A stretch of DNA of 64,000 nucleotides from Nitrososphaerota archaeon (GTDB lineage: Archaea > Thermoproteota > Bathyarchaeia > Bathyarchaeales > Bathycorpusculaceae): contig JAISPR010000087.1 in NCBI GenBank assembly GCA_031274765.1, positions 1 through 64,000 of the forward strand, in the 5' to 3' direction. The notes beneath the pieces are model-generated. The model saw only the letters and a program-made list of their open reading frames with translations. It was not told the DNA's origin and did not search any database. A program made the position numbers and the translations under genes. The first letter of the stretch is position 1. The number at the start of each line of letters is the position of its first letter. Positions 40,857 through 58,266 of the stretch are shown here, piece after piece.

Positions 40857-40880
40857 TCCGAAACGCTTATATTTTTATGC
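40857..40880 (+). promoter_or_regulatory. predicted BRE/TATA promoter of the aromatic operon
   Basis: CCGAAACG followed by CTTATATTTTTA fits the archaeal BRE plus TATA pattern. Initiation about 25 bases downstream would fall at about 40895, only about 12 bases before the leader ORF ATG at 40908. Confidence 0.55.
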
Positions 40881-40907
40881 CCCTGACTGATTGAACAGGT
40901 TCGAAGC

Positions 40908-40994
40908 ATGACTAACACGAACATAAAGAACAACAGGAGCATAATACAATTATGCAGCTTCGACTACGGCTTTTATCATAGTTATTTTCATTAA
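40908..40994 (+). CDS. putative aromatic leader peptide, 28 aa
   Basis: The ORF starts at ATG 40908 with AGGT 7 bases upstream and ends with TAA 40992-40994. Residues 17-28 are SFDYGFYHSYFH: three Phe and three Tyr within ten residues (18-27), after an Asn/Ile-rich start. It precedes the eleven-gene operon for chorismate and tyrosine by 59 bases. This is the composition of Phe/Tyr attenuation leaders in bacteria. The TAA touches the first base of a strong hairpin. Codons are TTC, TAC, TTT, TAT, TAT, TTT. Confidence 0.55.
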   Translation: MTNTNIKNNRSIIQLCSFDYGFYHSYFH

Positions 40995-41032
40995 GCCCAG
41001 AGCGGCCAGTTTTTTTGAGAGCCGGTCTGGGC
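40995..41032 (+). promoter_or_regulatory. leader hairpin with T7 loop before aspartate kinase
   Basis: GCCCAGA (40995-41001) pairs with TCTGGGC (41026-41032), and CGGC with GCCG inside, separated by one G-G mismatch: 11 base pairs. The loop holds seven T (41010-41016); archaeal RNA polymerase can terminate at such T runs. The hairpin begins directly after the leader stop codon and ends 21 bases before the aspartate kinase ATG. Confidence 0.55.
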
Positions 41033-41053
41033 AAACCACGGGCGGCAACATAG

Positions 41054-42298
41054 ATGACAAAACAACCTAAAGAACATAGAATTGTTGTTAAATTCGGCGG
41101 CTCCAGCCTATCAGATAACGAGCGACTCCTCAAAGCGGTCAACTCAGTCGTTAACGAAACAAAAAAAGGTACTAAAATCGCAGTCGTAGTTTCCGCCATG
41201 GGCAAAACCACTGATGTTCTATTAACAACAGCAAAAAACACATCAAATGGAAAGTTAACAAAACACGATTTAGACGATATCCTCTCCATGGGTGAACGGA
41301 CCAGTGCACGTATATTTGCCGCCGCCCTACGCAACAACGGCGCAAACGCACACTACTTTGACCCCACAGACAACCAATGGCCAATCATAACCGACGACGC
41401 TCACCAAAACGCCAACCCCAACCCCAAAGAATGCCAAAAAAACATCCAAAAATATATCCAACCCCTCGTAGAAGAAGGCACAATTCCAGTCATCCCGGGC
41501 TTTGTTGGCAAAACCAAAGAATGTCAAATAACCACCCTTGGACGAGGCGGAAGTGACACCACTGCATTCATACTAGCAAAGGGATTAGGTGCAGACCAGA
41601 TAGTACTTGTTACCGATGCAGAAGGCATCATGTCAAGTGACCCCAAAATCATCCAAACCCCTACCCTGTTATCAACCATTGAAGTAAACACACTAGTTGG
41701 ATTAGCAGACAGTGGGGCCAAATTCATCCACAGTAAAGCCCTCAAATATAAACCTCAAAATATCGATGTTAAAGTCATCAGCAATCAATATGGTGACCTC
41801 AGTAGACAAGGCACCCTAATCACAGGTAGCCTAACCACTGAGCTCAACGCAGAAATCGCTGACCCCACACCCGTAGCAGAAATCACTGTCATCGGCAACG
41901 GCCTATCGGCCAACCCCCAAGTCATCACAGAGGTAATTGAAAAAGTCAAAGAAAACACCACACTGCTTGGCATGTCAATGAATACCAACTCTATTATCCT
42001 CTATGTACAACAAACTCAAAACATCACCAAACTTTTTGACCAAATCCACCAAATCACCATTAACAACAAAGAAACTATAGCCATGGCAATCAAAAAGGAC
42101 TTGGTCTTCATCAAAACCAGCGGCATTGGATTAGAAGAAACTCATGGCATAATCGGCAAAATAAGCGAAGATCTCCGCGTTAACGGCATAAATATCAGCG
42201 GTATTTTGACTATTACATCAAGTATTCTACTATTTGTAGATTGGAATGAGCAAGAAAAAGCATTAAAGTTAATTAAAACTGCTCTAAAAACACATTAA
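41054..42298 (+). CDS. lysC: aspartate kinase
   Basis: Phosphorylates aspartate, leading to aspartate semialdehyde, which archaea use here both for the aspartate-family amino acids and as substrate of ADH synthase. The 414-aa protein has VKFGGSSLSDNERL at the start, TLGRGGSDTTAF and a C-terminal tandem ACT region (VAEITVIGNGLS onward) for feedback control. First gene of the operon, directly under the predicted leader and hairpin. Aspartate-semialdehyde dehydrogenase is not in the window. Confidence 0.94.
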   Translation: MTKQPKEHRIVVKFGGSSLSDNERLLKAVNSVVNETKKGTKIAVVVSAMGKTTDVLLTTAKNTSNGKLTKHDLDDILSMGERTSARIFAAALRNNGANAHYFDPTDNQWPIITDDAHQNANPNPKECQKNIQKYIQPLVEEGTIPVIPGFVGKTKECQITTLGRGGSDTTAFILAKGLGADQIVLVTDAEGIMSSDPKIIQTPTLLSTIEVNTLVGLADSGAKFIHSKALKYKPQNIDVKVISNQYGDLSRQGTLITGSLTTELNAEIADPTPVAEITVIGNGLSANPQVITEVIEKVKENTTLLGMSMNTNSIILYVQQTQNITKLFDQIHQITINNKETIAMAIKKDLVFIKTSGIGLEETHGIIGKISEDLRVNGINISGILTITSSILLFVDWNEQEKALKLIKTALKTH

Positions 42299-42309: not shown

Positions 42310-43101
42310 TTGAACGTTGGCAAAACCCGCAGACTTAAAAAAATTTTGCAAAAAGACGCACGCACCGTCATTGTCCCCATGGATCACGGGGTTACCATTG
42401 GACCCATACAAGGCATAGGTAACATGCAAACAATAACCAACCAGCTAGTCAAGGGAAAAGCTGATGCCATATTGGTGCATAAAGGTATCGCCAAACGCAT
42501 CGACACTGACAATGCAGGCTTAATTGTTATGTTAAGCGGTGCATCAAATCTGGGGCCCAATCCCAATGGTAAAGTTCAAGTCTGCAGTGTTGGAGAGGCT
42601 CTTCGTCTTGGTGCTGATGCGGTTAGTGTGCACGTAAACATAGGGGCCCAAGATGAAGACAAGATGCTTGCAAATTTAGGCAAGGTTAGTGAAGAATGTG
42701 AACACTATGGATTGCCCCTGTTAGCTATGATGTACCCAAGAGGGCCCAAAATTCTAAATGAGCATGATGTTAATGTTGTTGCACATGCCACTCGCATCGG
42801 TGCAGAACTGGGTGCAGATATCATCAAAACCAACTATACGGGCAGTATAGATACTTTTAGGATGGTAACTGAGAGTTGTCCGGCATCAGTTGTTATAGCG
42901 GGGGGTCCAAAATGTGAGTCGCCCAACGAAATTTTACAGACCACCTATGATGCACTCCAAGGCGGCGCGGCGGGACTCTCCATTGGACGTAATGTGTTTC
43001 AATGCGAAAACCCTACCGCAGTTACTAGAGCACTTTGGGCAATTGTACACGAGGGTGTTTTGGTGACAGAGGCACAAAAAATTCTGGGTGAAAAAGTTTG
43101 A
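42310..43101 (+). CDS. aroA': 2-amino-3,7-dideoxy-D-threo-hept-6-ulosonate (ADH) synthase
   Basis: First committed step of the archaeal shikimate route: aspartate semialdehyde plus 6-deoxy-5-ketofructose 1-phosphate. Class I aldolase-like barrel with [35 protein letters not shown] (Schiff-base lysine) and [12 protein letters not shown] start with AAGGTGA ribosome site overlapping the upstream stop. At 263 aa, normal length. Confidence 0.93.
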
Positions 43102-44102
43102 AAGAATTCTGGCTGGATGTAACAGGCAAAGTATCCTTGCAGGTGCCTCAGGATGTTGATGTAGTCATCAAGGATGCTAAGGCCTTCTTTTTAGCAGATA
43201 ATCAAGAGAGCAACATATTAACACTAAATCACGAGACAGATATTTGGAAAAATAAAGTAAAAATCATACGCATATGTATCAAAGATAAAACGTCTGAGGA
43301 TTTGATTGTTAAAGTTGCCCAGGCAGGCGCAGATTACTTAATAATCAGTACAGAAAACTGGCGCATAATCCCCCTAGAAAACCTTATCGCCCGCACAAGG
43401 GGCAAAAGTAAACTAATCGCCGAAGTCACCAACGCCGAAGAGGCAAAAATTGCAATAGAAACCCTTGAACTGGGCACAGATGGGATACTACTCAAAACCT
43501 CTGATACACAAGAACTCCTAAAAACCCTCGCCGTCATCAAACCTGAAACCTTAAAACTACAAATGACACCCGCCAAAATTGTTTCCATCAAACCCATTAA
43601 CACAGGCGCAAGAGTCTGCGTAGACACCTGTGACTTGATGACACCAGGCGAGGGCATACTATCGGGCAGTCAAAGTGCAGGGCTTTTCTTAGTGGAAGCT
43701 GAAGTTAACGAAAACCCCTACGTCAACTCACGACCATTCCGGGTAAATGCCGGCTCCTGCTCTATGTACACCCTTGGCAACCTCCAAACCACCCGCTACC
43801 TCCAAGAATTCAAAGCCGGAGATGAAATCATAATCATAAACCGGGAAGGTAAACCCCGCAAAACCAACGTAGGCCGAATAAAAATAGAAATCCGCCCGCT
43901 CATCCTAATAGAAGCAGAAGCGGAAAACAAAACAATCAAAGTTATTCTGCAAAACGCTGAAACCATTCGCATCGTCACTCCTAAAAGCTCCAAACCCGTC
44001 ACTGAACTAAAAGCAGGTGATGAGGTGATGGTACATTTAGCAGCAAAAGGCGGCAGACATTTTGGCATCTCGGTGCCAGATGAAACGGTGATCGAAAAAT
44101 GA
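43098..44102 (+). CDS. aroB': 3-dehydroquinate synthase II
   Basis: NAD-dependent oxidative deamination and cyclisation of ADH to 3-dehydroquinate, replacing bacterial AroB. The N-terminus reads [15 protein letters not shown]; the conserved region contains GARVCVDTCDLMTPGEGILSG (in parts CVDTCDLMTPGEG) and SRPFRVNAGSCSMYTLG. At 334 aa, slightly shorter than many. TTGA overlap with the ADH synthase stop. Confidence 0.93.
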   Translation: MKEFWLDVTGKVSLQVPQDVDVVIKDAKAFFLADNQESNILTLNHETDIWKNKVKIIRICIKDKTSEDLIVKVAQAGADYLIISTENWRIIPLENLIARTRGKSKLIAEVTNAEEAKIAIETLELGTDGILLKTSDTQELLKTLAVIKPETLKLQMTPAKIVSIKPINTGARVCVDTCDLMTPGEGILSGSQSAGLFLVEAEVNENPYVNSRPFRVNAGSCSMYTLGNLQTTRYLQEFKAGDEIIIINREGKPRKTNVGRIKIEIRPLILIEAEAENKTIKVILQNAETIRIVTPKSSKPVTELKAGDEVMVHLAAKGGRHFGISVPDETVIEK

Positions 44103-44785
44103 ACCCCAGAATCTGTGCCTCAATTCGCCCTCAAACCATCAGTGAAGCACAAGATTTAATCAAAAAAGCAGAACAATCCCAAGCAGACCTTATCGAAATT
44201 CGACTAGACCACTTAGAACAAACAAAAAATCTCACAGCCCTCACCAAGAACACAACCCTCCCACTAATAGCAACCAACAAACTTGACACTCTAACCACAA
44301 AAAACCCAAACATAGAAATAGAAAAACAACAAACCCTGCTAAACGCGGCCAAAGCAGGCTTTCAATATGTAGATATTGACTTTTTTGACCCAACCCGTGA
44401 CAAAACCATTACCAAACTCAAACAACTAGGCACTAACCCCATAGTATCCTACCACAAATTCGACGGCATCCTGGGTGTTTCTGCACTTGGAGAAATACTT
44501 GACAAACAAATAGCAGTTGGCGCGGCAGTTTGTAAAATTGTGTTAACCGCCAAACATATAGAGGATAACTTGTCGGTTCTTAGTTTCATCGCATTTGCCT
44601 CGGTTAGAACAAAATTGGTGTGTTTTTGCATGGGTGAAGCAGGCAAAACTTCACGTCTGCTCGCACCAGCATTTGGGGCTTACTTTACATTTGCAGCTCT
44701 TCAACAAGGTAATGAAACAGCACCCGGACAAATGACTATTGCAGATATGCGTTTAGCCTACAAACTGTTGGGGTTAATGCCATGA
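44099..44785 (+). CDS. aroD: 3-dehydroquinate dehydratase, type I
   Basis: Dehydrates 3-dehydroquinate through a Schiff base. The strand-1 motif DLIEIRLDHLEQ, the His in ILGVSALGE's preceding SYHKFDG (SYH...), and the catalytic Lys in AVCKIVLTAK are present, ending FTFAALQQGNETAPGQMTI. 228 aa. Start ATG overlaps the previous stop by 4 bp. Confidence 0.93.
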   Translation: MNPRICASIRPQTISEAQDLIKKAEQSQADLIEIRLDHLEQTKNLTALTKNTTLPLIATNKLDTLTTKNPNIEIEKQQTLLNAAKAGFQYVDIDFFDPTRDKTITKLKQLGTNPIVSYHKFDGILGVSALGEILDKQIAVGAAVCKIVLTAKHIEDNLSVLSFIAFASVRTKLVCFCMGEAGKTSRLLAPAFGAYFTFAALQQGNETAPGQMTIADMRLAYKLLGLMP

Positions 44786-45651
44786 CTATTTCAGGTAAAA
44801 CCCGCATATGCGGCATCATTGGTGACCCCATTGAGCATTCCCTTAGTCCAATTATGCATAATGCCGCCTTTGAAGCATCAGGATTGGATTATACATATTT
44901 AGCCTTTAAAGTAAAACCCGCCGGTATTGCTAACGCCGTTGAGGGCATGAGGGCCCTAAACATCCGCGGCTTAAACGTTACCATGCCGCATAAAAACACC
45001 GTTATGGCAAATCTTGACCGTATTGATCTCTCGGCACAGATCATAAACTCGGTAAACACAATACTAAACAAAGAAAATCTACTGTTAGGTTTTAATACCG
45101 ATGGGATTGGTGCAGTTAAGGCCTTAAAAGAAAATGGTGCTGAACTAAAGGGCAGAAAAGTTTTGTTACTAGGCTCAGGCGGTGCAGCAAGAGCTATTGC
45201 CCATTCGGTTGTCAAAGAAGCCGATGAGTTAGCTGTGCTCAATCGAACAGTTAAGCATGCTCAGGCACTGGCTAAACTACTTGAAAGGTCGGTTAATAAA
45301 AAAATTGCGGTTGGCTCTCTATCGCCAAGTGACATTCAACAAAATCTTCAAGATTCAGATATTCTCATAAATGCCACATCTATAGGCATGAAGCCGCACC
45401 CAGACATAAGCCCCATTCCACCAAAATTGCTCCGGTCTAATCTCTCAGTTATGGATATAGTGTATAATCCCTTAGAAACTAAACTATCAAAAGATGCGAA
45501 AAATGCAGGTGCAAAAATAATTAGTGGGGTGGAGATGCTTATCTATCAGGGGGCGGTTGCTTTTGAGATTTGGACGGGAAAAACGGCACCTGTTGAAATT
45601 ATGCGACAAACAATATTTAGTCATCTGCAACGGAAGGCACAAGGAAATTGA
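44782..45651 (+). CDS. aroE: shikimate dehydrogenase
   Basis: NADP-dependent reduction of 3-dehydroshikimate. Substrate-site residues in IEHSLSPIMHNAAF (Ser-Leu-Ser-Pro), catalytic Lys-Asp in TMPHKNTV and FNTDGIGAV, and the Rossmann loop LLGSGGAARAIAHSV are intact. 289 aa. ATGA overlap with aroD. Confidence 0.95.
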   Translation: MTISGKTRICGIIGDPIEHSLSPIMHNAAFEASGLDYTYLAFKVKPAGIANAVEGMRALNIRGLNVTMPHKNTVMANLDRIDLSAQIINSVNTILNKENLLLGFNTDGIGAVKALKENGAELKGRKVLLLGSGGAARAIAHSVVKEADELAVLNRTVKHAQALAKLLERSVNKKIAVGSLSPSDIQQNLQDSDILINATSIGMKPHPDISPIPPKLLRSNLSVMDIVYNPLETKLSKDAKNAGAKIISGVEMLIYQGAVAFEIWTGKTAPVEIMRQTIFSHLQRKAQGN

Positions 45652-46517
45652 GCAATAGAGCTTTAGCGGTGGCACATGGTGCGGTAACGATTGTTAATGC
45701 AATTGCGTTGGGCAGGGGAGCGGCGTTTGGGGTGGATTTGTGGACTAAAGCAGAGGTTAAATTAACCAGTGAGGCGGGCATAGTTGAAGTGGAAATATTA
45801 TCTGATGTTGAAGAATGTCCACAGCTTGTCAAAAAAACTGCACTGGGAGTTATGAAACGGTTTGGTTTAGAGAAAAGTTTTGGGGCTCAGATAAGAACAC
45901 AATCAAATATTCCCATCGCTAGGGGTCTAAAGAGCAGCAGTACCGCGGCAAATGCAACAGCCCTTGCCACGGTGGCAGCGTTGGGTAAGCACCTTGATGA
46001 TTTAGAGGTTATAAAAATCGGTGTACAGGCAGCATTTGATGCTCAGGTCACACTCACGGGGGCCTTTGATGATGCATGTGCCTCGTATTTTGGGGGGGTA
46101 GTCATAACGGATAATTTAAATCAAAAAATTCTAAAACAGATGACTTTACCCCAAGAGTTAGCTGTGTTGTTCTATGTACCTTCACAGAAAGCCTACACTA
46201 TCAATGCAGATACCACTCGGCTCAAAACCGTGAAGCCGCTGGTTGAAATCGCGTTTGAAAAGGCGATGCAGGGTGAGATTTGGGATGCGTTGACATTAAA
46301 CGGTTTAGCATACTCGGCAGCATCTAATCAGGACATGACCATTGCCATTGATGCGTTAGCGGCAGGGGCAACAGCTGCGGGATTGTGTGGCAAAGGTCCA
46401 GCAATAGCAGCTATCACATCCAGTGATGCCATCGACAAAGTAAGAGTTAGCTTACAAAAATATGAAGGGGAAATCATACTAGCCTATCCCAACAGCAAAA
46501 AAGCTACGGTGATCTAA
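45648..46517 (+). CDS. aroK: shikimate kinase, archaeal GHMP type
   Basis: GHMP-superfamily kinase unrelated to bacterial AroK. It begins ALAVAHGAVTIVNAIALGRG, the ATP site is IPIARGLKSSSTAANATALA, and the C-terminal GHMP motif AAGLCGKGPAIAAI is present. 289 aa. TTGA overlap with aroE. Presence here completes the archaeal-type pathway. Confidence 0.95.
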   Translation: MSNRALAVAHGAVTIVNAIALGRGAAFGVDLWTKAEVKLTSEAGIVEVEILSDVEECPQLVKKTALGVMKRFGLEKSFGAQIRTQSNIPIARGLKSSSTAANATALATVAALGKHLDDLEVIKIGVQAAFDAQVTLTGAFDDACASYFGGVVITDNLNQKILKQMTLPQELAVLFYVPSQKAYTINADTTRLKTVKPLVEIAFEKAMQGEIWDALTLNGLAYSAASNQDMTIAIDALAAGATAAGLCGKGPAIAAITSSDAIDKVRVSLQKYEGEIILAYPNSKKATVI

Positions 46518-47812
46518 TGGTTGATGTTGTTGTTAAAAAAACATCTCAGCTATATGGAGAAATTTTTGCTCCGCCCTCGAAGTCATATACTCAGCGCATG
46601 GTCATAGCCGCGGCATTATCACAGGGGGTTTCAAAGGTTTGGCAGCCTCTTTTTGCCCAAGACACTAAAGCCGCTCTAAGAGCAGTGAGTGCTTTTGGCG
46701 CAAAAGTCCAATTTGACAAGGATTGTTGGATAATTCACGGAGCTAAGCGGCTCAAAGCGCCAGAGGGGCCTGTGGACTGTGGAGAATCGGGGGCAACCCT
46801 GCGCTTTATAGTGCCCATTGCAACACTTGCAGAGGGTCCCTCGACGTTGTTGTTTAGAGGTTCAATTGAGCGGCGTCCTGTAGAACCCCTCATAGGAGCT
46901 CTAGAAGCTCTTGGTGCAAATGTTTGTGTGGGCAAATATGATAATTTAGATGCAGTTTTTGTGGAAGGCTTGGGTTTAGCGGGGGGTAAAACAGCCATTG
47001 CAGGCGATATAAGCTCTCAGTTCATCTCAGGCTTAATGTTTGCCTGCCCTTTGGCCGGTTTAGAAACTGAAATCGCTCTAACTTCACATTTAGAATCCAC
47101 CGATTACATAAAGATGACAAAGACAGTTCTTTCCAATCACGCCATAACAGTAAACCTCAACCCCACCAGCATCACAGTTCCTGGCAATCAAACATATAAG
47201 CCAACAGAGACTAAAGTGCCAGGAGATTTTTCTTCAGCGGCCTTTCTCTTAGCCGCCTCAGCAATAGTTCGCTCACATATTACCATCAACAATTTAGATC
47301 ATGAAATGATACAAGGTGACAGGGCCATCATAGTTGTGCTCCAGAAAATGGGGGTTAAAATTAAAGTCTGTCCCCTGGGGGTTGAAATTCAAAGTACCGG
47401 CAACCCGCTAATACCCATCGATGTAGATGTAAAAGACATCCCAGATCTCGTTCCAGTAATTGCTGTTCTAGCCTGCTATGCTAAGGGTACATCACATATT
47501 TTGGGTGCAAAAAGACTCCGATTCAAAGAATCCGACCGATTGCAATCCATCTATGCGGAACTAAACAAAATGGGGGCAGAAATTGTTCTAACTGAGGAGG
47601 GGTTGAGCATAACAGGTGCGCCCCTTCAGGGTGCAGTCATTAACACCCACAACGACCATCGAATCGCCATGGCGGCCTCTGTTGCGGCATTGCATGCAGA
47701 AGGCAAGACCACCATTCAAGATGCTGAATGTATCAGAAAGTCTTATCCACAATTCTATATTCATCTAAAGCAAATAGGAGCAGATATCATTGGCGGGGAA
47801 TTTGATAGGTAG
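46517..47812 (+). CDS. aroA: 3-phosphoshikimate 1-carboxyvinyltransferase (EPSP synthase)
   Basis: Adds enolpyruvate to shikimate 3-phosphate. Signatures: FAPPSKSYTQRMVIAAAL, CGESGATLRFIVPIA, GDISSQFISGLMFA, VPGDFSSAAFLLAA, RFKESDRL and NTHNDHRIAMA. 431 aa, full length. The start shares one base with the aroK stop (TAATG). Confidence 0.96.
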   Translation: MVDVVVKKTSQLYGEIFAPPSKSYTQRMVIAAALSQGVSKVWQPLFAQDTKAALRAVSAFGAKVQFDKDCWIIHGAKRLKAPEGPVDCGESGATLRFIVPIATLAEGPSTLLFRGSIERRPVEPLIGALEALGANVCVGKYDNLDAVFVEGLGLAGGKTAIAGDISSQFISGLMFACPLAGLETEIALTSHLESTDYIKMTKTVLSNHAITVNLNPTSITVPGNQTYKPTETKVPGDFSSAAFLLAASAIVRSHITINNLDHEMIQGDRAIIVVLQKMGVKIKVCPLGVEIQSTGNPLIPIDVDVKDIPDLVPVIAVLACYAKGTSHILGAKRLRFKESDRLQSIYAELNKMGAEIVLTEEGLSITGAPLQGAVINTHNDHRIAMAASVAALHAEGKTTIQDAECIRKSYPQFYIHLKQIGADIIGGEFDR

Positions 47813-48893
47813 AGAATTCACCATAACAACGTTTGGCGAGAGTCATGGTAAAGTCGTGGGGGTATTAATTGATGGTTGCCCGGCGGGTTTAGGGCTCTCA
47901 GAAACAGATTTTGAAGAAGAACTCAAAGAGCGGATTCCGGATAATCCAAAAATTGTTTCAGCACGTATAGAAAAAGATGTGCCCCAAATTTTGAGCGGGG
48001 TCTTTAACGGCTACACAACTGGTGCACCGCTTGTTATAATTGTTGAGAACAGAGAAGTCCAATCCGGCGACTATGAGGTTATTAAAAATCTACCGCGTCC
48101 ATCCCATAGTGACTACCCTGCGCGCATTCGATACGGAGGCTTTAATGACTACCGGGGTAGTGGACGGTTCTCAGGTCGCATGACAGTCGCACTTATTATA
48201 GCAGGGGTTGTTGCTAAAAAATTACTCGCACACTACGATATTGAGGTTTTAGCCTACACTCAAGCTATTGGGTTAATTAAGAGTGACAAAGAAGTCTCTT
48301 TGTTTGAGTGTAGAAAAAACCGTAATGCCACAACTACTAGGTGTTTGGATGTGGCATGTGCAGAAAAAATGGAGGCTGCCATTGTTGCGGCTAAAGAATC
48401 AGGGGATAGTCTTGGCGGTGTTATCGAATGTGTTACATTCAATATGCCAGCAGGTATCGGTGAGCCGCTCTTTGATACCTTAGATGGGGATTTGGCTAAG
48501 GCGCTCTTTAGCATACCGGCAGTAAAAGGTGTTGAATTCGGCAGGGGTTTTAGGGTTGCAGAATTGAGGGGAACAGAAAACAATGATGCTTTTTGCATAC
48601 AGGAGGGTAGAGTAGTAACTGTGACCAAAAACGCTGGCGGCATATTGGGCGGGCTATCTAATGGTATGCCCATTGTTATTCGAGTGGCCATTAAACCCAC
48701 ACCCTCAATTGTCAAAGAACAACAAACCGTTAATTTGTTGACCTATGAGAACACTCAGATTAGCATCAAAGGTAGACATGATCCATGTATTGTTCCAAAG
48801 GCTGTGCCTGCTGTGGAAGCCGCTGTTGCCATAACATTAGTGGATCATCTGATGCGTTCAGGAAATATTTCAAAAATTCTTAAGAGGCCATGA
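47790..48893 (+). CDS. aroC: chorismate synthase
   Basis: FMN-dependent elimination of phosphate from EPSP to chorismate. TTFGESHGKVVGVLIDGCP at the start, RPSHSDYPARIRYG, RGSGRFSGRMTVALI and the C-terminal GRHDPCIVPKAVPAVEA are all conserved. TTG 47790 gives MAGNLIGREF, overlapping aroA by 23 bp. 367 aa. Confidence 0.96.
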   Translation: MAGNLIGREFTITTFGESHGKVVGVLIDGCPAGLGLSETDFEEELKERIPDNPKIVSARIEKDVPQILSGVFNGYTTGAPLVIIVENREVQSGDYEVIKNLPRPSHSDYPARIRYGGFNDYRGSGRFSGRMTVALIIAGVVAKKLLAHYDIEVLAYTQAIGLIKSDKEVSLFECRKNRNATTTRCLDVACAEKMEAAIVAAKESGDSLGGVIECVTFNMPAGIGEPLFDTLDGDLAKALFSIPAVKGVEFGRGFRVAELRGTENNDAFCIQEGRVVTVTKNAGGILGGLSNGMPIVIRVAIKPTPSIVKEQQTVNLLTYENTQISIKGRHDPCIVPKAVPAVEAAVAITLVDHLMRSGNISKILKRP

Positions 48894-49156
48894 AATTGGA
48901 TAAAATAGAGGTATTGCGTGGAAAAATAGATGTAATTGATGAGCAAATTCTGCAGGCTATAGAACAGCGAATGGAGATATGCCGCGCCATTGGAGAACTC
49001 AAAAAACAACAAGACAAACCAATATATGACAATTTACGGGAAGCAAAAGTTTTTCGCAGAGTCAAAAACCACGCAGAACAACTCAAACTAGATCCACTTC
49101 AAATTGAGCGGATTTACCGCGAAATAGTTAATATGTGCAGTAGCGTTCAACAATAG
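48890..49156 (+). CDS. chorismate mutase, AroQ type
   Basis: Converts chorismate to prephenate. The 88-aa all-helical protein has LRGKIDVIDEQILQAIEQRM, EICRAIGELKKQQDKPIYD, and the basic RVKNHAEQLKLDPLQIERIYRE helix with the expected Arg/Lys active-site residues. ATGA overlap with aroC. Confidence 0.92.
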   Translation: MKLDKIEVLRGKIDVIDEQILQAIEQRMEICRAIGELKKQQDKPIYDNLREAKVFRRVKNHAEQLKLDPLQIERIYREIVNMCSSVQQ

Positions 49157-49182
49157 AGGACTCTAAACGGAGAGGCACCAGT

Positions 49183-50262
49183 ATGCTTTATGAAATAAAC
49201 GAAAAAGCCCTAAAACTTGAAAGCGAAGGAAAAAAGATCATCCGACTAAACCTTGGCGACCCAGACATGGCTACACCCCCCGAAATTGTGGAAGCGGCGT
49301 ATGCATCAATAAAGGCGGGCAAAACCAAATATTCCTCCTCTTATGGCGAATTACGTCTGCGGCAGAAAATCGCAGAAATACATGGCGTCAAAGCCGAAAA
49401 CATAGTTATCACGCCTGGCTCAAAATGGGGCGTTTTTGCCTCAATGTTTCTAACACTCAAAGGCGACAGCAACGTCATCATTCCAACACCGTACTGGACA
49501 GCCTATGATTTGATTGCTAAAAGCTTAGGTGTCAAAACCAAACTGTTGCGCACTGAAATGGAAACTGGCTGGAAAGTAGACCTTGCAGAACTTGAAAAAC
49601 TCATCGATACAAACACCAAAATGATTATCCTAAACAACCCCAATAATCCCACCAGTAAAACCATGGATCCCCAAACACTAGAGGGTATTGTTAAGATATC
49701 CAACAGTAGAGGCATCATTGTTCTCTCCGATGAGGTGTATAGTGCCATCAGCTTCACCCCGACCAAGAGTATTCTTGACTATGGCACAGACAGCCCGCAT
49801 ATTTTAAGCAACGGATTTAGCAAAACCTTTACTATGACGGGGTGGCGCATTGGCTATCTTGTTGCTAACAAACTCTTCATAGACAACATCACCAAGCTCA
49901 ATCAAATCACCATAAACAATGTGCCTGGCTTTATCCAGGATGCAGCACTAAAGGGCTTAGAGCACCGAGCCGAAATCACAGGAAGCATCAAAGCCAAATA
50001 CAAACAACGCGCTGACCTTGCATCTAAAAAACTCTCCGTTGCGGGCTTCAAATTTACTCAACCAGATGCCCCATTCTATCTGTTTCCCAAACGTGACGGC
50101 TTAGATGGCGAAAAATTCACGTTAAATCTGCTGGATAGCGGTGTTGCAGTTGCCCCGGGCACAAGTTTTGGTGACTACCAAGAACACTTCCGCATCAGTC
50201 TAACCGCTCCAGATGAACAAATCGCTACAGCCTTAGATAAAATCTGCGAGGTAACCGTTTGA
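49183..50262 (+). CDS. class I aminotransferase (aspartate/aromatic)
   Basis: PLP-dependent transaminase; position between chorismate mutase and prephenate dehydrogenase suggests it converts hydroxyphenylpyruvate/phenylpyruvate or prephenate. Motifs: RLNLGDPDMATPPEIV, NNPNNPTSKTMDP, SDEVYSAISF, the PLP lysine in SNGFSKTFTMTGWRIGY and FRISLTAPDEQ. ATG 49183 follows GGAGAGG; the N-terminus is slightly shorter than in many homologues. Confidence 0.92.
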   Translation: MLYEINEKALKLESEGKKIIRLNLGDPDMATPPEIVEAAYASIKAGKTKYSSSYGELRLRQKIAEIHGVKAENIVITPGSKWGVFASMFLTLKGDSNVIIPTPYWTAYDLIAKSLGVKTKLLRTEMETGWKVDLAELEKLIDTNTKMIILNNPNNPTSKTMDPQTLEGIVKISNSRGIIVLSDEVYSAISFTPTKSILDYGTDSPHILSNGFSKTFTMTGWRIGYLVANKLFIDNITKLNQITINNVPGFIQDAALKGLEHRAEITGSIKAKYKQRADLASKKLSVAGFKFTQPDAPFYLFPKRDGLDGEKFTLNLLDSGVAVAPGTSFGDYQEHFRISLTAPDEQIATALDKICEVTV

Positions 50263-51131
50263 GAACAGCCGTTCTTGGCGCAGGAAAAATGGGCATCTGG
50301 TTTGCGAAATATTGCAAATCCAGAGGTGACACGGTAGTTCTTGCGGACAGGAACGTCGAAAAACTTGCGAAGCTAAAAGAAGAGCTGGGTGTTGAAACAG
50401 CAGATTTTGCAGTTGCCGTTTGGGGTGCTGATCGGGTACTCATCTGTGTATCCATTTCTAGTTTTGAGGAGATTGTTAAAAAAATCAGTCCTGCGATTCA
50501 TGTGGGACAGCCAGTTATGGATATCTGTTCGATAAAAGAGTATCCGGTCAATATTATGCATCAGTATTTAAAGAAAGCTCTGGTTTTGGGGACACACCCC
50601 GTGTTTGGGCCAGGCAGTAGTGGGGTAGCTCACAAGGCCTATGTTTTAACCCCCACTAATTCAGAGGAACATGCCTACGCAGAAAAATTCAAGGAGTGGC
50701 TCATAGAAGAAGAGGCGCATGTTTTTGTTATGACCCCACAGAAGCATGATGAATTAATGGGGATTGTTTTGGGTTTTCCGCATTTTCTGGGGTTAGCGGC
50801 CTGTGAAACTCTTCTTGAGCAACCGAGTTTTATGGAATCTAAAAAGTTAGCGGGTACCACGTATCGGATGTTGTTTACGTTAGCCGAAGCGGTTGCCATG
50901 GAAACCCCTGATCTTTACGCCAACATTCAGACTAAACTCGCTGATTTAGATAATATGGAGGAGCAGTTTATCGCAAATGCTAAACAGTGGTTGGATTTGA
51001 TGAAGAAAAAAGATGTCCCGGCTCTAATGGAACGGGTGACACAGTTGCGAACAAAATTGGAGAAAGCAGACAGTGAATACACCAAAAGCTATGAAATCAT
51101 GTACAAGATGCTCCAGTCAACTGAAGGTTAA
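50259..51131 (+). CDS. tyrA: prephenate dehydrogenase
   Basis: Oxidative decarboxylation of prephenate to hydroxyphenylpyruvate for tyrosine. Rossmann motif AVLGAGKMGIWFAKYCKSRG at the start, DICSIKEYPVNIM, LGTHPVFGPG and the helical dimer domain with GFPHFLGLAACETLL. 290 aa, TTGA overlap with the aminotransferase gene. Last gene of the operon; pheA lies in the convergent operon. Confidence 0.93.
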   Translation: MRTAVLGAGKMGIWFAKYCKSRGDTVVLADRNVEKLAKLKEELGVETADFAVAVWGADRVLICVSISSFEEIVKKISPAIHVGQPVMDICSIKEYPVNIMHQYLKKALVLGTHPVFGPGSSGVAHKAYVLTPTNSEEHAYAEKFKEWLIEEEAHVFVMTPQKHDELMGIVLGFPHFLGLAACETLLEQPSFMESKKLAGTTYRMLFTLAEAVAMETPDLYANIQTKLADLDNMEEQFIANAKQWLDLMKKKDVPALMERVTQLRTKLEKADSEYTKSYEIMYKMLQSTEG

Positions 51132-52524: not shown

Positions 52525-53337
52525 TTAGATAACACGAGGATAACTGCCTAAAATTTTTACAAAAGTTGCATATGTTTCCAGTGCAACAATAGCCTCAGCG
52601 CAACGTCTCTCGATGCGATGTCCTTCAAAGTCTAAATAAAAATTGTATTGCCACGCAGTTGTTTTGGTTGGACGAGACTCAATACGGGTAAGATTGATGT
52701 TTCGGGACGCAAATTCACCCAATGCATAATAAAGTGTCCCAGGTGCATGTTTAGCACTAAAAATAATACTAGTTTTGTCATCACCGGTTGGCTCTGCATC
52801 TTGGTTACTCAACACTAAGAATCGAGTATAATTAGAAGGGTTATCAGCAATGTCACGCGCAAGGAGTTTCATACTGTAGATGTCGGCAGCTTTCTCAGAT
52901 GCAATAGCAGCAGCGTCTGTAAGATTTTGCTCTTTAATGAGTTTAACAGCTCCGGCAGTGTCATAAGCGGGGATGATTTCCCATTTGTGTTCTTCAAGAT
53001 AGAGTCGACACTGCGCTAACGCTTGGGGGTGGGAGTAAACGGTATTTATGTCTTCGAGTTTTGTGTCGGGTTTACTTATAAGAACATGAGCGAGTTTAAC
53101 AGCGACTTCGCCGCAGACTTTTAAGTCATAATTTAAGAAGAGATCATAGTTCTGATTGACACTGCCCTCAATTGAGTTTTCAATGGGAACTACACCATGG
53201 GGAACAGCACCAGATTTGACCGATTCAAAGATACTACGAAAATCCTTACAGGGTACAGGCTCTGCTTTGTTACCGAAAAATTTGAAGACCGCCATCTCAC
53301 TGTATGCACCAGGTTCTCCCTGGTAGGTTACCATCAT
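52525..53337 (-). CDS. pheA: prephenate dehydratase
   Basis: Converts prephenate to phenylpyruvate for phenylalanine. TYQGEPGAYSEMAVFKFFG, GVVPIENSIEGSVNQNYDLF, the catalytic Thr region NYTRFLVLSNQD and a C-terminal ACT domain (KTSIIFSAKHAPGTLYYALG, RPTKTTAWQYNFYLDFEG) for phenylalanine feedback are all present. 270 aa. Last gene of the ilv-leu operon, overlapping leuA by 4 bp, linking Phe to branched-chain synthesis in one transcript. Confidence 0.95.
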   Translation of the reverse strand: MMVTYQGEPGAYSEMAVFKFFGNKAEPVPCKDFRSIFESVKSGAVPHGVVPIENSIEGSVNQNYDLFLNYDLKVCGEVAVKLAHVLISKPDTKLEDINTVYSHPQALAQCRLYLEEHKWEIIPAYDTAGAVKLIKEQNLTDAAAIASEKAADIYSMKLLARDIADNPSNYTRFLVLSNQDAEPTGDDKTSIIFSAKHAPGTLYYALGEFASRNINLTRIESRPTKTTAWQYNFYLDFEGHRIERRCAEAIVALETYATFVKILGSYPRVI

Positions 53338-54860
53338 GGTTTAATTCCTTGTTTTCCACTTCGGGTCTTTAGCAGACACTTGTTTATACCATTTATCATT
53401 GCCTCAACAGAGGCCATAACGATGTCTTCGCGTGCTGCACGAGCGCTAACAATGTTACCTTTTTCGTCTTCAACTTTTATAACAACTTCGGCAACTGCGT
53501 TAGAACCCCCGGTTATAGCTTCAAGTCTATATTCGCTTAGACGGATCTTTTCAAGATTACTGGTTAGTTTCTGAATAGCTTTGAGCACTGCATCAACGGG
53601 TCCAACACCCGTTTCTGCTGCGACGTACTCTCTGCCATCTAAGGTTAGACGAACAGATGCTGTGGGGATGACTTTTATACCTGTTACTACGGCCATGTCG
53701 CATAAATCAACGATTTTTTGCTCACCAATAACTTCACCCATAACCGCAGATGTAAGCGCAAATAAATCAGCATCCGTGACTAACTTGCCTTTGTCACCTA
53801 AGTCTTTGACACGCTTTACAATTTCTACTAACTGGGCTTCATTTGGGGTAATGCCGATTTCCGATAGCTCAGCTTGTATGCCACGTGTACCAGCTAGTTT
53901 ACCGGCAACGAGTTTACGTGTTCGACCAACCAACTCAGGACTTATGGGCTCAAAAGTTAGGGGCTGCTCAGTTACACCACGGGTGTGAATACCGGATTCG
54001 TGGGCAAACGCATTTTCGCCCACTATAGCTTTGTTAGCCTGCACCGGAATACCGGTTAGCGATGCAACTAGACGACTGGTACTATAGAGCAGACGGGTGT
54101 TAACATTTGTCTGGTATTTGTAGACCACATGTAGAGTAGTTACGACTTCTTCTAGAGCCGCATTGCCTGCGCGCTCACCTAGCCCGTTAACTGCAGTGTG
54201 GACTTGTGAAGCCCCTGCTTCCACGGCAGCTAAACTGTTAGCAACCGCTAAGCCAAAATCATCATGGCAGTGAATACTTAGAGGGACAGAGACAATGTTT
54301 TTTAGCTCATTTATTAGCTGGGTAATGGTTTTAGGTATCATTATACCCACAGTATCAGGTACATTTAAGCTGTCCATACCTGCGTCTTGTGCGGCATGAC
54401 AAATTTGTTTAATAAAGGTTAACTCAGACCGAGTGATGTCCATGGGGGAGAATTCGCATTTAACGCCATGCTTTTTTACGTATTCGATGCTGTCTACTGC
54501 AGAGGCCAATACTTGTTCAGGTGTTAAGTTAACAGCGTATTTCATCTGTATTGGTGAAGTTGGTATAAAAACATGAATTAAGTCCACATCGCAATCCAGG
54601 GCTGCATCAATATCGGAACGTTTAGCGCGTGACAATGCACAGATTTTTGATGTTAAGCCCAATTTGGCGATGTTTTTTACGACTTTTTTTTCACCCTCAG
54701 AACTACTGGGAAAACCCGCTTCGATGATGTCAACGCCTAGTTTGTTTAGTTGTTGGGCGATCTCGATTTTATCGTCTGAGGTTAAGGAGACACCGGGGGT
54801 TTGTTCGCCATCCCTTAAGGTGGTGTCCAATATGTGGATAGTTCGGGGTTGGGTTGTCAT
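53334..54860 (-). CDS. leuA: 2-isopropylmalate synthase
   Basis: Condenses 2-oxoisovalerate and acetyl-CoA, first step of leucine synthesis. [54 protein letters not shown] and [10 protein letters not shown] are present, and NVPDTVGIM fits isopropylmalate synthases better than citramalate synthases. The C-terminal regulatory domain ([15 protein letters not shown]) is complete. ATG 54860 has GGTGA 5 bases upstream; GTG 54869 is an alternative. Located with leuBCD, which supports LeuA over CimA. Confidence 0.9.
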
Positions 54861-54878
54861 GGGTTTCACCGGTTGTTG

Positions 54879-55901
54879 TTATAGGGCATAAGCGATAGCT
54901 TCTGCCATGGTTTTGGTTGTTGCTTTGCCACCTAAATCTGGAACGACTTGGTCGCTGGCTAAGGTTTTAACTACGGCGGTTTCTATGGCGTTGGCTGCCT
55001 GTAGGCATTGGGTATCGTTGTATCGTTCGCCCAGCCAATCAAGCATCATTTTTGCGGAGAGTATCATTGAGATGGGGTTGGCTATGTGTTTTCCTGCGAT
55101 GTCAGGTGCGCAACCGTGGATAGGTTCAAACAGTGCAAAGTCGTCGCCGACATTTGCACCTGGGGCCATGCCTAAGCCGCCGATTAGCTGTGCGGCTTCA
55201 TCGCTTAATATGTCGCCAAACATGTTGCAGGTACATAATACATCGAAGTCTTCAGGTTTGCGTATTAGGTGCATTGATGCTGAGTCAACATACATATCGG
55301 TATATTGAATGTCGGGATATTTTTGGGCGGTTTCAGCACATATTTTTTTGAACATACCATCGGTGATACGCATGACATTGGCTTTGTGGATGGCGGTTAC
55401 TTTTTTCTTACCATTACGTAAGCGAGCTGTTTCGAATGCTTTTTTGGCTATGCGTTCACAGTTTTTGCGTGTGATAACTCTTAGGCACAGGGTGGTGTCG
55501 TTGCCTATGGTGAATTCTAAACCCTTGTAGACGTCCTCAGTGTTTTCTCTGACAAAGACCATATCGATATTTGGACTAGTGGCGGGTGCGTGGGGGTAGG
55601 CTTTTAGGGGGCGTATGTTTGCATATAAATCAAATATTTGGCGCAGTTTAATGATGACATCGGCGGCGGTTTCTCCAACAGGACCTTTTAGGCAAGCATG
55701 GGAGGTCTTAATTGTTTGCAAACTGTCGGCAGGTAGAGCGATGCCCTGCTGTTCAAATACCATATCGCCTGCATCAGCGGTAGCCATATTTAATTTTATA
55801 TCGAATTTTGTTTGAATAACTGTTAAGACTGTTAGGGTTGCTTGGGTTAATTCGGGACCTATGCCATCGCCGGGCATTAGAGCGATTGTGTATTTAGTCA
55901 T
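54879..55901 (-). CDS. leuB: 3-isopropylmalate dehydrogenase
   Basis: NAD-dependent oxidative decarboxylation in leucine synthesis, and the equivalent step for citramalate-derived methylmalate. MPGDGIGPELTQATL at the start, FVRENTEDVYKGLEF, DMYVDSASMHLIRKPEDFD and GLGMAPGANVGDDFALFEPI. The R-E-N-T-E-D-V-Y segment also occurs in isocitrate dehydrogenase-type paralogues, so promiscuity is possible. 340 aa, overlaps leuD by 4 bp. Confidence 0.9.
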   Translation of the reverse strand: MTKYTIALMPGDGIGPELTQATLTVLTVIQTKFDIKLNMATADAGDMVFEQQGIALPADSLQTIKTSHACLKGPVGETAADVIIKLRQIFDLYANIRPLKAYPHAPATSPNIDMVFVRENTEDVYKGLEFTIGNDTTLCLRVITRKNCERIAKKAFETARLRNGKKKVTAIHKANVMRITDGMFKKICAETAQKYPDIQYTDMYVDSASMHLIRKPEDFDVLCTCNMFGDILSDEAAQLIGGLGMAPGANVGDDFALFEPIHGCAPDIAGKHIANPISMILSAKMMLDWLGERYNDTQCLQAANAIETAVVKTLASDQVVPDLGGKATTKTMAEAIAYAL

Positions 55902-56401
55902 TTTTTGTTCAGCCTCTTGCGTAGGTTTTCGATTAACCCGCCATCAGCCAAGATTTCCATGATAAAGAGCGGCAACGTTGTTCCCTGTAGTATCTGTATG
56001 TTCGTGTAGTTTTGGATTTTACCTGATTCTAAATTCACAGATAATACATCGCCTGAGGCCACAACAGCAGATATGCCTTTGCATTCCATAACCGGCAAGC
56101 CAATATTTATACTATTACGATAGAATATACGTGCGAATGATTCCGCAATGACACATTTAACCCCAGCATGCTTGAGCGCTAAAGGCGCCTGCTCACGACT
56201 AGAACCGCACCCAAAATTTTTACCCCCAACCAATATAGCACCAACTTTAGCCTTATTAACAAAATCTGCATCCAAACCCTCCAAAGCATGTTTTCCCAAC
56301 TCATGGGGATCAACCAAAATTAAATACCTGCCAGGCAAAATAACATCAGTGTCAATATTGTCACCAAACACTACAGCATTAGCTTTGATTTCATTCACCA
56401 T
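55898..56401 (-). CDS. leuD: isopropylmalate isomerase small subunit
   Basis: Swivel domain of the LeuCD hydro-lyase. It shows VFGDNIDTDVILPGRYLIL, VGGKNFGCGSSREQAPLALK and SFARIFYRNSINIGLPV. 167 aa, typical of the archaeal/HACN-type small subunit. The start ATG shares one base with leuC. LeuCD may also serve the citramalate route. Confidence 0.94.
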   Translation of the reverse strand: MVNEIKANAVVFGDNIDTDVILPGRYLILVDPHELGKHALEGLDADFVNKAKVGAILVGGKNFGCGSSREQAPLALKHAGVKCVIAESFARIFYRNSINIGLPVMECKGISAVVASGDVLSVNLESGKIQNYTNIQILQGTTLPLFIMEILADGGLIENLRKRLNKK

Positions 56402-57663
56402 TATAAATCAACCTCCAGAGGACTAACGATTCTACCAACTATAGCCGAAGCCGCCACCGTTGCAGGCGAAGCCAAATAAACATTAGCTTGAGTACTACCC
56501 ATCCGACCAATAAAGTTACGATTGCTTGAGGCCACGCAAGTCTCACCAGCAGCCAACAGACCAATGTGTCCACCCAAACAGGGCCCACATGCACTACCAC
56601 AAACAATAGCACCTGCTTCAGTAAAGATTTTAAGCAACCCTTCTTCGTCAGCTTGTTTCCAGATTTCCTGCGAAGCAGGGATGATAAGCGCACGAACCCC
56701 TGCTTTGACTTTTTTGTTCTTCATAATCTGTGCAGCTATTTGCAAATCTTCTAATCGCCCATTAGTGCAACTACCAATAAAAGCTTGGTTTATAGGTATG
56801 TTACCGGCTTCAGATAGGGGTTTGACATTATCCACTGAACTGGGGCATGCAATTTGGGGTTCCAGTTTAGAAACATCAAATTCGACGATGCGCTCATATT
56901 TTGCATCTGGATCGCTTTGCAGACCTTTTATCTCAGGTGTTTTTCCAGTTCGACTAAATAGGTACTCAGCAGTGGTTTGATCGGGTACAATTATACCGTT
57001 TTTGGCACCCATCTCAACAGCCATGTTACATAGCGTCATTCGGCCAGCCATACTCATAGCTTTGATTGTTGAGCCAGTGAATTCGGTGGCATAATAAATC
57101 GCACCATCTACGCCCAAGGTACCAATCATGTTTAAAATAAGGTCTTTTGAGTAGACATGTTTTTTGAATTTGCCTTTGATGCTAATTTTGATAGAAGGAG
57201 GAACTTTGAACCAGATTTTACCTGTGGCCATAACAGTAGCAGCTTCAGTGCTACCTATACCTGTTGCAAATGCACCAAACGCACCATAGGTGCATGTATG
57301 ACTATCTGAACCAACGATGACTGCACCTGGAACAACGTGGCCTTGCTCAGGCATAACCTGATGACAAATACCGCCTCTGCCCACATCATAGAAAATAAGA
57401 TTTTGCTCGCTAACAAAAGTGCGCATTGTTTTGTGGAGTTCTGCAGCTTTCACAGATTCCGCAGGAACCTGATGATCCAAAATCACAACTACCTTTTTGT
57501 TGTCCCACACTTTTTGACAGCCTATTTTTTTGAAGGCCTCCACAGCTAAGGGACCGGTTAGGTCGTGCATCATGACCATATCGACGTTAGCATCGACGAT
57601 TTCGCCTTGATACACGGCTTTTTTTCCCGAAGCCTTTGCCAAGATTTTTTCAGTTATGTTCAT
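56401..57663 (-). CDS. leuC: isopropylmalate isomerase large subunit
   Basis: [4Fe-4S] hydro-lyase. HDLTGPLAVEAFKKIGC, GSDSHTCTYGAFGAFATGIG, FIGSCTNGRLEDLQIAA and GSACGPCLGGHIGLLAAGE supply the cluster cysteines; NRNFIGRMGS ends the core. 420 aa, archaeal type. A 90-bp gap with a hairpin separates it from ilvH. Confidence 0.95.
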   Translation of the reverse strand: MNITEKILAKASGKKAVYQGEIVDANVDMVMMHDLTGPLAVEAFKKIGCQKVWDNKKVVVILDHQVPAESVKAAELHKTMRTFVSEQNLIFYDVGRGGICHQVMPEQGHVVPGAVIVGSDSHTCTYGAFGAFATGIGSTEAATVMATGKIWFKVPPSIKISIKGKFKKHVYSKDLILNMIGTLGVDGAIYYATEFTGSTIKAMSMAGRMTLCNMAVEMGAKNGIIVPDQTTAEYLFSRTGKTPEIKGLQSDPDAKYERIVEFDVSKLEPQIACPSSVDNVKPLSEAGNIPINQAFIGSCTNGRLEDLQIAAQIMKNKKVKAGVRALIIPASQEIWKQADEEGLLKIFTEAGAIVCGSACGPCLGGHIGLLAAGETCVASSNRNFIGRMGSTQANVYLASPATVAASAIVGRIVSPLEVDL

Positions 57664-57705
57664 TTTCCTTCATTCCTTAAATTAGACAGTAAACAGGGAT
57701 TGGGC

Positions 57706-57727
57706 AATTGCCTAAGAACCGGCAATT
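57706..57727 (-). promoter_or_regulatory. intercistronic hairpin between ilvH and leuC
   Basis: AATTGCC and GGCAATT flank an 8-base loop, a perfect 7-bp stem in the only sizeable gap of the operon. Could adjust leu versus ilv expression by processing, partial termination or RNA stability. Confidence 0.4.
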
Positions 57728-57753
57728 AAGCCTTTCCACAGCACTAAATATGT

Positions 57754-58266
57754 TTACTCGTTGATTCTTATCGATTTTGTGCCCCTCCCCAACGCTGTTA
57801 TACCTGTTCGAGCAAGTTCGAGGATATCAAACGTTTTCATGACATTTAGAAAAGCATCGATTTTGTCAGGAGTTCCTGTGATCTCCACAATTAAACTATC
57901 AGTAGAGACATCAACAATTCGGCCGCGAAAAACCTCCACAAAATTAATGATATCACTGCGCTCTTTAGCGTCCTTAACCGCCACTTTGATTAAAGAAAGC
58001 TCACGCATAACAAGACCACCATATTCGAGTTCAACCACCTTGAGCACATCAATTTGTTTAGCAACTTGTTTAACGACCTGATCAAGCGTTTTGTCATCAC
58101 CTTTAACAGTTATAGTCATACGAGAACTATCCGGCTCCACACTTGGACCCACAGTTATACTTTCGATGTTAAAATTACGACGTCGAAACAAGTTTGCAAT
58201 CATATGTAAAACACCAGGCTTATTTTCAACCAAAACAGATATGACTTTAGTTTTCCCTGCTTCCAT
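57754..58266 (-). CDS. ilvH: acetolactate synthase regulatory subunit
   Basis: ACT-domain partner of IlvB conferring valine feedback. VISVLVENKPGVLHMIANLF, RRRNFNIESITVGPS and the second domain ELSLIKVAVKDAKERSDII, then GRIVDVSTDSLIVEITG. 170 aa. Start overlaps the ilvB stop by one base. Confidence 0.95.
   Translation of the reverse strand: MEAGKTKVISVLVENKPGVLHMIANLFRRRNFNIESITVGPSVEPDSSRMTITVKGDDKTLDQVVKQVAKQIDVLKVVELEYGGLVMRELSLIKVAVKDAKERSDIINFVEVFRGRIVDVSTDSLIVEITGTPDKIDAFLNVMKTFDILELARTGITALGRGTKSIRINE

Follow-up and report, generated by a model that had tools for sequence, protein, structure and literature searches.

A conserved Phe/Tyr-codon leader with two RNA helices before the aromatic amino acid operon of Bathyarchaeia: a probable ribosome-mediated attenuator in archaea

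The leader and the aromatic operon

The window, i.e., the whole stretch of DNA that was analysed, comprises 64,000 nucleotides of contig JAISPR010000087.1 from a Nitrososphaerota archaeon of the Bathyarchaeia. Among named genomes, those of 'Candidatus Bathyarchaeota' hold the closest relatives of its aspartokinase. The plus strand of the window carries an aspartate kinase gene, lysC, followed by the genes for 2-amino-3,7-dideoxy-D-threo-hept-6-ulosonate (ADH) synthase, DHQ synthase II, aroD, aroE, archaeal shikimate kinase, aroA, aroC, chorismate mutase, an aminotransferase and prephenate dehydrogenase. This operon is the archaeal route to chorismate and then to Phe and Tyr, and the gene-by-gene annotation, from aspartokinase to prephenate dehydrogenase, shows that the first-pass annotation of this DNA was right in assigning it to aromatic amino acid synthesis. 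A cluster resembling ilvB-ilvN-leuC-leuD-leuB-leuA is found on the minus strand at 52525-59972 and has prephenate dehydratase (pheA) as its last gene. Phe synthesis is, therefore, divided between the aromatic operon and these minus-strand genes. A DDE transposase gene (PF01609, 38802-40316) lies directly 5' of the promoter that precedes lysC. The features of the segment are the following:

40858-40876, plus strand: BRE/TATA-like promoter core CCGAAACGCTTATATTTTT, read directly and kept across the genus and the family
40896-40899, plus strand: putative transcription start, placed from the TATA spacing
40901-40907, plus strand: 5' arm of helix P1, TCGAAGC, at the 5' end of the transcript (RNAalifold and pair counts, 44 sequences)
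40908-40994, plus strand: leader ORF of 28 amino acids, MTNTNIKNNRSIIQLCSFDYGFYHSYFH, with ATG at 40908 and stop codon TAA at 40992-40994
40956-40991, plus strand: Phe/Tyr codon cluster SFDYGFYHSYFH
40957-40963, plus strand: 3' arm of P1, GCTTCGA, overlapping Ser-Phe-Asp codons
40995-41032, plus strand: hairpin P2 (7 bp, G.G mismatch, 4 bp), with covariation
41039-41046, plus strand: Shine-Dalgarno (SD)-like CGGGCGGC of lysC, weak in the window, GGGTG in most relatives
41054-42298, plus strand: lysC, aspartate kinase, first gene of the aromatic operon (NF005159, above cut-off)
42310-51131, plus strand: remaining aromatic operon (10 genes, ADH synthase to prephenate dehydrogenase)

Direct reading of the sequence confirmed the TATA-like promoter, the 28-residue ORF and the presence of three Phe and three Tyr within ten residues (FDYGFYHSYF), all of which had been described previously, although the peptide quoted for these ten residues, SFDYGFYHSYFH, is actually 12 residues long. 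This 12-residue peptide also contains two His, which are not kept in relatives. Given the position of the putative transcription start, the untranslated 5' part of the leader would be only about 10 nt long. The first base of P2 (40995) is the base directly 3' of the leader stop codon, and its stem pairs 40995-41006 with 41021-41032, closing a loop that contains a T7 run at 41010-41016. Of the hairpin as first described, the contact with the stop codon and the T7 loop stand, and the 11-bp stem contains one internal mismatch. The distance of 21 nt between the end of P2 (41032) and the ATG of lysC (41054) had been given correctly. The folding energy of P2 is -23.4 kcal/mol (z = -4.96), and 0 of 200 shuffled sequences were equally stable. 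Because the downstream genes make chorismate and then Phe and Tyr, the control codons of the leader correspond to the amino acids that the operon produces.

Conservation of the leader within the genus

The genus set consisted of the loci of 30 members found by an aspartokinase search, the genome of the window included. The same leader layout was found in 30/30 genus members that have an aromatic-pathway lysC with an available start; the leader ORF and the stem are thus conserved in close relatives, contrary to what would have refuted the first-pass reading. This layout runs from the TATA element through GGTTCGAAGC, the start codon, a variable N-terminal part, a Phe/Tyr cluster of the type SF(D/E)YGFYYFGYFP, the stop codon and GCCCAGAAC...GTTCTGGGC to the SD and lysC. 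The leader ORF is 25-29 codons long and keeps its start and stop codons, and its N-terminal part varies freely with the frame preserved, given that the gaps within the ORF in the alignment are multiples of three. The distance from the TATA element to the 5' arm of P1 is 29-32 bp in 39 of the 40 genus and family leaders in which both were located.

A covariance model built on the leader (R1) was used to search 22 genus genomes, and matched 21 of them, with one match each that is always 5' of lysC. The sole genome without a match (G012) also has no aromatic-pathway lysC, while the leader of G005, MSNCKNKKENSASQFLSFDYYFYYYFY, was matched though absent from the model-building set. The matches occur only before lysC, with none at other operons of these genomes. 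The P1 motif followed by ATG is found once in the genome, and a regulon defined by this motif was ruled out by its uniqueness.

RNA structure of the leader

RNAalifold applied to 44 aligned leaders of family f1 returned exactly two helices, P1 and P2. P2 had been recognized in the first-pass annotation; P1 (40901-40907 with 40957-40963), in which TCGAAGC by the putative transcript start is paired with GCTTCGA in the Ser-Phe-Asp codons, had been overlooked. Pair counts made on the 44 leaders without structure prediction show standard pairs in 95.5% of the cells, a value that drops to 22-50% in controls with slid alignments. Compensatory changes, which had been named as a check of the stem, are present there as pair-preserving changes. 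In the counts, both partners of the pair have changed in 12 cells, compared with 2.8 in shuffled data, and 0/500 shuffles reach the observed values. For the seven inner pairs of P1, 307 of 308 cells hold standard pairs. On the strength of these alignments P1 appears well supported, short of proof because most of its changes are one-sided and wobble-keeping.

A search of all column pairs of the f1 alignment gave no helix longer than 5 bp except P1 and P2, and no conserved antiterminator-like or competing alternative helix was found in the clade of the window. The two helices are compatible and not mutually exclusive; since they are compatible and no conserved helix competes with them, the textbook mutually exclusive switch is missing in this clade, and a switch of the trp type is not supported. 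Competing helices are predicted in single leaders of other families (e.g., L257 and L279). A comparison with the Rfam covariance models, among them those of T-boxes, amino acid leaders and riboswitches, gave nothing above the gathering cut-off, with two weak matches that lie far below it and are implausible.

The position of P2 is closely defined across families. Its start relative to the leader stop codon has a median of 0 nt, its end lies at medians of 2-6 nt from the SD in most of the main class families, and 73 of the 93 leaders reach z <= -2 between stop codon and SD. The same anatomy is built from unrelated sequences in the other families, as seen in L295 and L292, where helices between the 5' UTR and the codons are combined with hairpins at the stop codon. 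In L295, the 5' UTR sequence GCTCCAGAGGC pairs with GCCTCTGGAGC in the codons, and a perfect hairpin, GCCCTGGC-ATGA-GCCAGGGC, stands at the stop codon. In f50 members, the start region pairs with the Tyr codons and also with a C-rich stretch before the SD.

Leaders in other families

In a survey of the class, aspartokinase was found at E <= 1e-90 in 102/257 genomes, and the upstream stretches were taken for 60 of those 102, in addition to earlier ones; families are named here by labels, and leaders at contig ends were lost. Eight class families (f1, f5, f6, f9, f12, f13, f14 and f19) have aromatic leader ORFs, which end about 45-80 nt upstream of lysC. The peptides share little beyond Phe and Tyr, as illustrated by MFYSFSYYFYN, FFTYFSGYYTTF, PYYYYYYYCFF and PFFGRFGYFGY, each followed by its stop codon.

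All 93 leaders have at least two Phe and at least two Tyr in the last 13 codons (means of 3.75 Tyr and 3.55 Phe), a count that has to be read with the selection rule, which demanded a total aromatic count of at least 5. Given that leaders were selected in this way, the enrichment was rated by dinucleotide shuffles. In its aromatic score, the ORF end exceeds the shuffles (p <= 0.05) in 30/30 leaders of the genus, 21/21 of the rest of f1, 12/14 of f6, 6/6 of f9 and 2/3 of f5, and in the one or two members each of f12, f13, f14 and f19. The three misses in f5 and f6 correspond to two truncated contigs and one misplaced start. Lysine-type lysC paralogues have a leader in 0/10 cases, with aromatic scores of 0-3. 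An aromatic leader before lysC was found in 0/5 members of f15 and is essentially absent from f10 (1/7).

The same kind of leader was found outside the class in members of four families, f34, f35, f43 and f50; in f50 and part of f35 it precedes another gene ahead of ADH synthase and not lysC. Many further members of these four families were examined, and no leader was found in them. Two candidate aromatic leaders, each a single sequence, were seen in a Thaumarchaeota MAG (L056, MRGGSVYRWPLFGFKR, about 100-160 nt 5' of lysC) and in a Jordarchaeia MAG (L057, MWMDYFFMHN, about 90-125 nt 5' of lysC), both running up to a stop codon.

Other leader-like elements in these genomes

Upstream of ilvB (minus strand of the window, about 60126-60060; L130-L159), 23 genus genomes carry the near-invariant sequence ATGAGGGAT[CT]GTCACCTCAATAGCTGGGATCGTCGGGTA with a good SD. 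The ORF of this element begins MRDRHLNSWDRRV. The element takes a rearranged form, GTGAGGGATAGCCGGGTACGGAGGAATCGTTTCATCC, in order-level relatives; in the RNAalifold prediction, the SD is paired with CCTCT further downstream. Upstream of hisG (24 genus loci, L193-L217, e.g., G000:C49 near 43060), the sequence GTATGATGAGGGATTGCGTTCATACAAGGCGATTGCCTTCATT is almost invariant, with GATTG repeated in tandem at a spacing of about 19-20 nt and the ORF MRDCVHTRRLPS, and it resembles the ilvB element.

In f10 and f15, a conserved MG(D/G)x(L/V)(F/Y).. element (GGTGATnnnnTTTTCGGTGATGGCGTTTAC) stands before the same lysC in place of the Phe/Tyr leader (L246, L247, L250-L253, L256, L259, L261, L265-L268 and L270-L275). 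It follows an SD, has interchangeable ATG, GTG or TTG starts and resembles the hisG and ilvB elements. It may represent another kind of leader device.

The trpE promoter is preceded by a conserved palindrome, TGTACATTTATGTACA (TGTACA palindrome; L160-L188), which resembles the methanogen TRP box of TrpY. By this analogy, trp seems to be repressor-controlled in the same genomes.

A mechanism for the leader and its alternatives

Comparison of the leaders establishes the conserved ORF, the Phe/Tyr codons, P1 and P2, and their one-to-one association with the aromatic operon, with both helices at fixed positions relative to the first aromatic codon, the stop codon and the SD. Control by the ribosome through charged Phe/Tyr-tRNA is argued chiefly from the recurrence of this positional logic, with new sequences, in many families. 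The segment is, therefore, likely to be a ribosome-mediated (leader-peptide) attenuator of the aromatic amino acid operon that senses charged Phe- and Tyr-tRNA. The fact that f10 and f15 control the same lysC without a Phe/Tyr leader is a counter-point to this reading.

In the mechanism that we propose, a ribosome would initiate on the leader ORF close to the 5' end of the transcript, at most about 10 nt from it. Under a shortage of charged Phe-tRNA or Tyr-tRNA, the ribosome would stall on the codon cluster and cover the 3' arm of P1, and P2, placed between the leader stop codon and the SD of lysC, would be able to form. When both charged tRNAs are ample, the ribosome would reach the stop codon with its footprint over the 5' arm of P2, and P1 would be free to close behind it. 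Which of these two states is occupied would decide the expression of lysC and of the remaining operon. We infer the translation of the leader, the sensing of charged tRNA and the direction of control, the last from feedback logic, according to which starvation most plausibly turns the operon on.

One conceivable readout is translational attenuation, in which the freed 3' arm of P2 would pair with the SD of lysC, with P2 as the on state and the anti-SD pairing as the off state. Such pairing is clear in single leaders (L263, and L278 with CUCC-UUUU-GGAG), and blocking P2 lowers the accessibility of the SD in f12 and in several f6 leaders. In folding tests with simple ribosome footprints and in-silico energies, however, the effect in the genus is no larger than that of pair-shuffled stems (mean percentile 0.62), it is near chance in f5, f6 and f9, and a three-state folding model divides the genus members 10:11 between the stalled and the terminating state, with no consistent difference. 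Occlusion of the SD by the 3' arm of P2, which had been suggested by L263, L264 and L278, was rejected for the genus on the shuffled-stem and three-state tests, and this form of attenuation is considered unlikely.

A second use of P2 in translation would be to bridge the leader stop codon and the SD, so that ribosomes re-initiate on lysC and the supply of Phe and Tyr acts positively. P2 almost exactly fills the interval between stop codon and SD in most families, and archaeal termination-reinitiation is known at short distances (PMC12548453). Such coupling would nonetheless run opposite to feedback control and would not need Phe/Tyr codons, and the linear distance of 40-60 nt from stop to start is larger than the effective range reported for Haloferax (PMC12548453), which makes this explanation improbable.

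Classical attenuation by an intrinsic terminator, as put forward in the first-pass annotation, would have the archaeal RNA polymerase stop at a T-run in or after P2 unless a ribosome prevents it. U-tracts are known stop sites of this polymerase (PMC8116511), the loop of P2 in the window contains the T7 run, and T4-T5 directly follows the hairpin in several other families. The T-runs are, however, not conserved: runs of T >= 5 between stop codon and SD occur in just 16/30 leaders of the genus and 20/63 of the others, and are missing from the three nearest relatives (L002-L004). Within the genus, the T-runs are those of the loop (16/30), and 0/30 leaders have T >= 5 within the last 14 nt upstream of the SD. 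P2 acting as a terminator would, moreover, turn the operon off upon starvation, when the ribosome is stalled upstream of it. T-run termination is thereby ruled out as a general readout, and as the readout of this leader it is quite unlikely. Of the attenuator reading as first formulated, the Phe/Tyr leader ORF, the hairpin and the tie to the operon are retained and the termination at the T-run is not.

The constancy of P1 could also reflect a DNA operator, with GGTTCGAAGC at the transcription start bound by a repressor and the leader ORF secondary. A fixed distance of 29-32 bp from the TATA and a strongly conserved sequence would suit an operator, but the changes in P1 preserve its base pairing with the codons, other families keep the same pairing with a different P1 sequence, and the motif before ATG is unique in the genome. 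Since an operator also leaves the Phe/Tyr codons and P2 unexplained, this explanation is likewise quite unlikely. It is least probable that the leader is a TnaC-like arrest peptide, with the nascent chain itself sensing free Phe or Tyr, given that the conserved C-terminal SF(D/E)YxFYY is confined to f1 and that peptides outside f1 share aromatic content alone, with last residues that vary freely.

For the leader-peptide attenuator that we favor, two readouts remain, namely, premature factor-dependent termination of the FttA type or a direct effect of P2 on the initiation of lysC. In the literature, FttA termination and the coupled ribosome have been proposed as competitors (PMC8116511, PMC11616081, PMC12548453). 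The leader would work in the manner of a leader-peptide attenuator, but we do not place it in the classical kind in the strict sense, given that the tests for an intrinsic terminator and for helices that exclude each other were both negative.

Relation to known systems and significance

To our knowledge, leader-peptide attenuation of amino acid operons has been shown in bacteria only. The pheL/pheST, trpL and hisL attenuators of E. coli share with the present leader a short ORF rich in codons for the product, placed between the promoter and the first gene, a stop codon that abuts an RNA hairpin, and a helix that involves the control codons. The present leader differs from them in its archaeal host, in having no conserved hairpin and U-tract terminator, in having P1 and P2 that, in the clade of the window, are not mutually exclusive, and in that P1 has its 5' arm in the 5' UTR. 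The ermC and cat translational attenuators have a leader ORF, a hairpin and a downstream SD and make a terminator unnecessary; here, in contrast, the SD lies outside P2, and its occlusion in one state is unsupported by the folding tests. Methanothermobacter TrpY and its TRP box likewise control aromatic amino acid genes in an archaeon, but through a DNA-binding repressor without a leader peptide that acts on trp and not on this operon.

Leader peptides combined with RNA structure before amino acid operons are also described for actinobacterial elements (PMC1262725) and for the three-hairpin attenuator of C. glutamicum ilvBNC (PMC11857589); these systems are bacterial, unlike the leader studied here. 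Ribosome-mediated attenuation in archaea was not found in the full-text literature searched, where absence is not proof, and a 2021 review of archaeal coupling mentions neither attenuation nor leader peptides.

Taken across families, it appears on balance that ribosome-mediated attenuation exists and is widespread in archaea, in many Bathyarchaeia and in other lineages of the phylum, with Phe/Tyr leaders and a terminator-independent readout. Given a readout without an intrinsic terminator, the archaeal output would differ, for example by FttA termination or by ribosome access to the first gene. A conserved archaeal case in several families would show that archaea make regulatory use of the progress of a ribosome along a leader. 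With mutational predictions at hand for the Phe/Tyr codons, P1 and P2, the leader would offer an anatomically defined system for studying how the position of the ribosome is read out in archaea without Rho or terminators of the bacterial hairpin and U-tract type.
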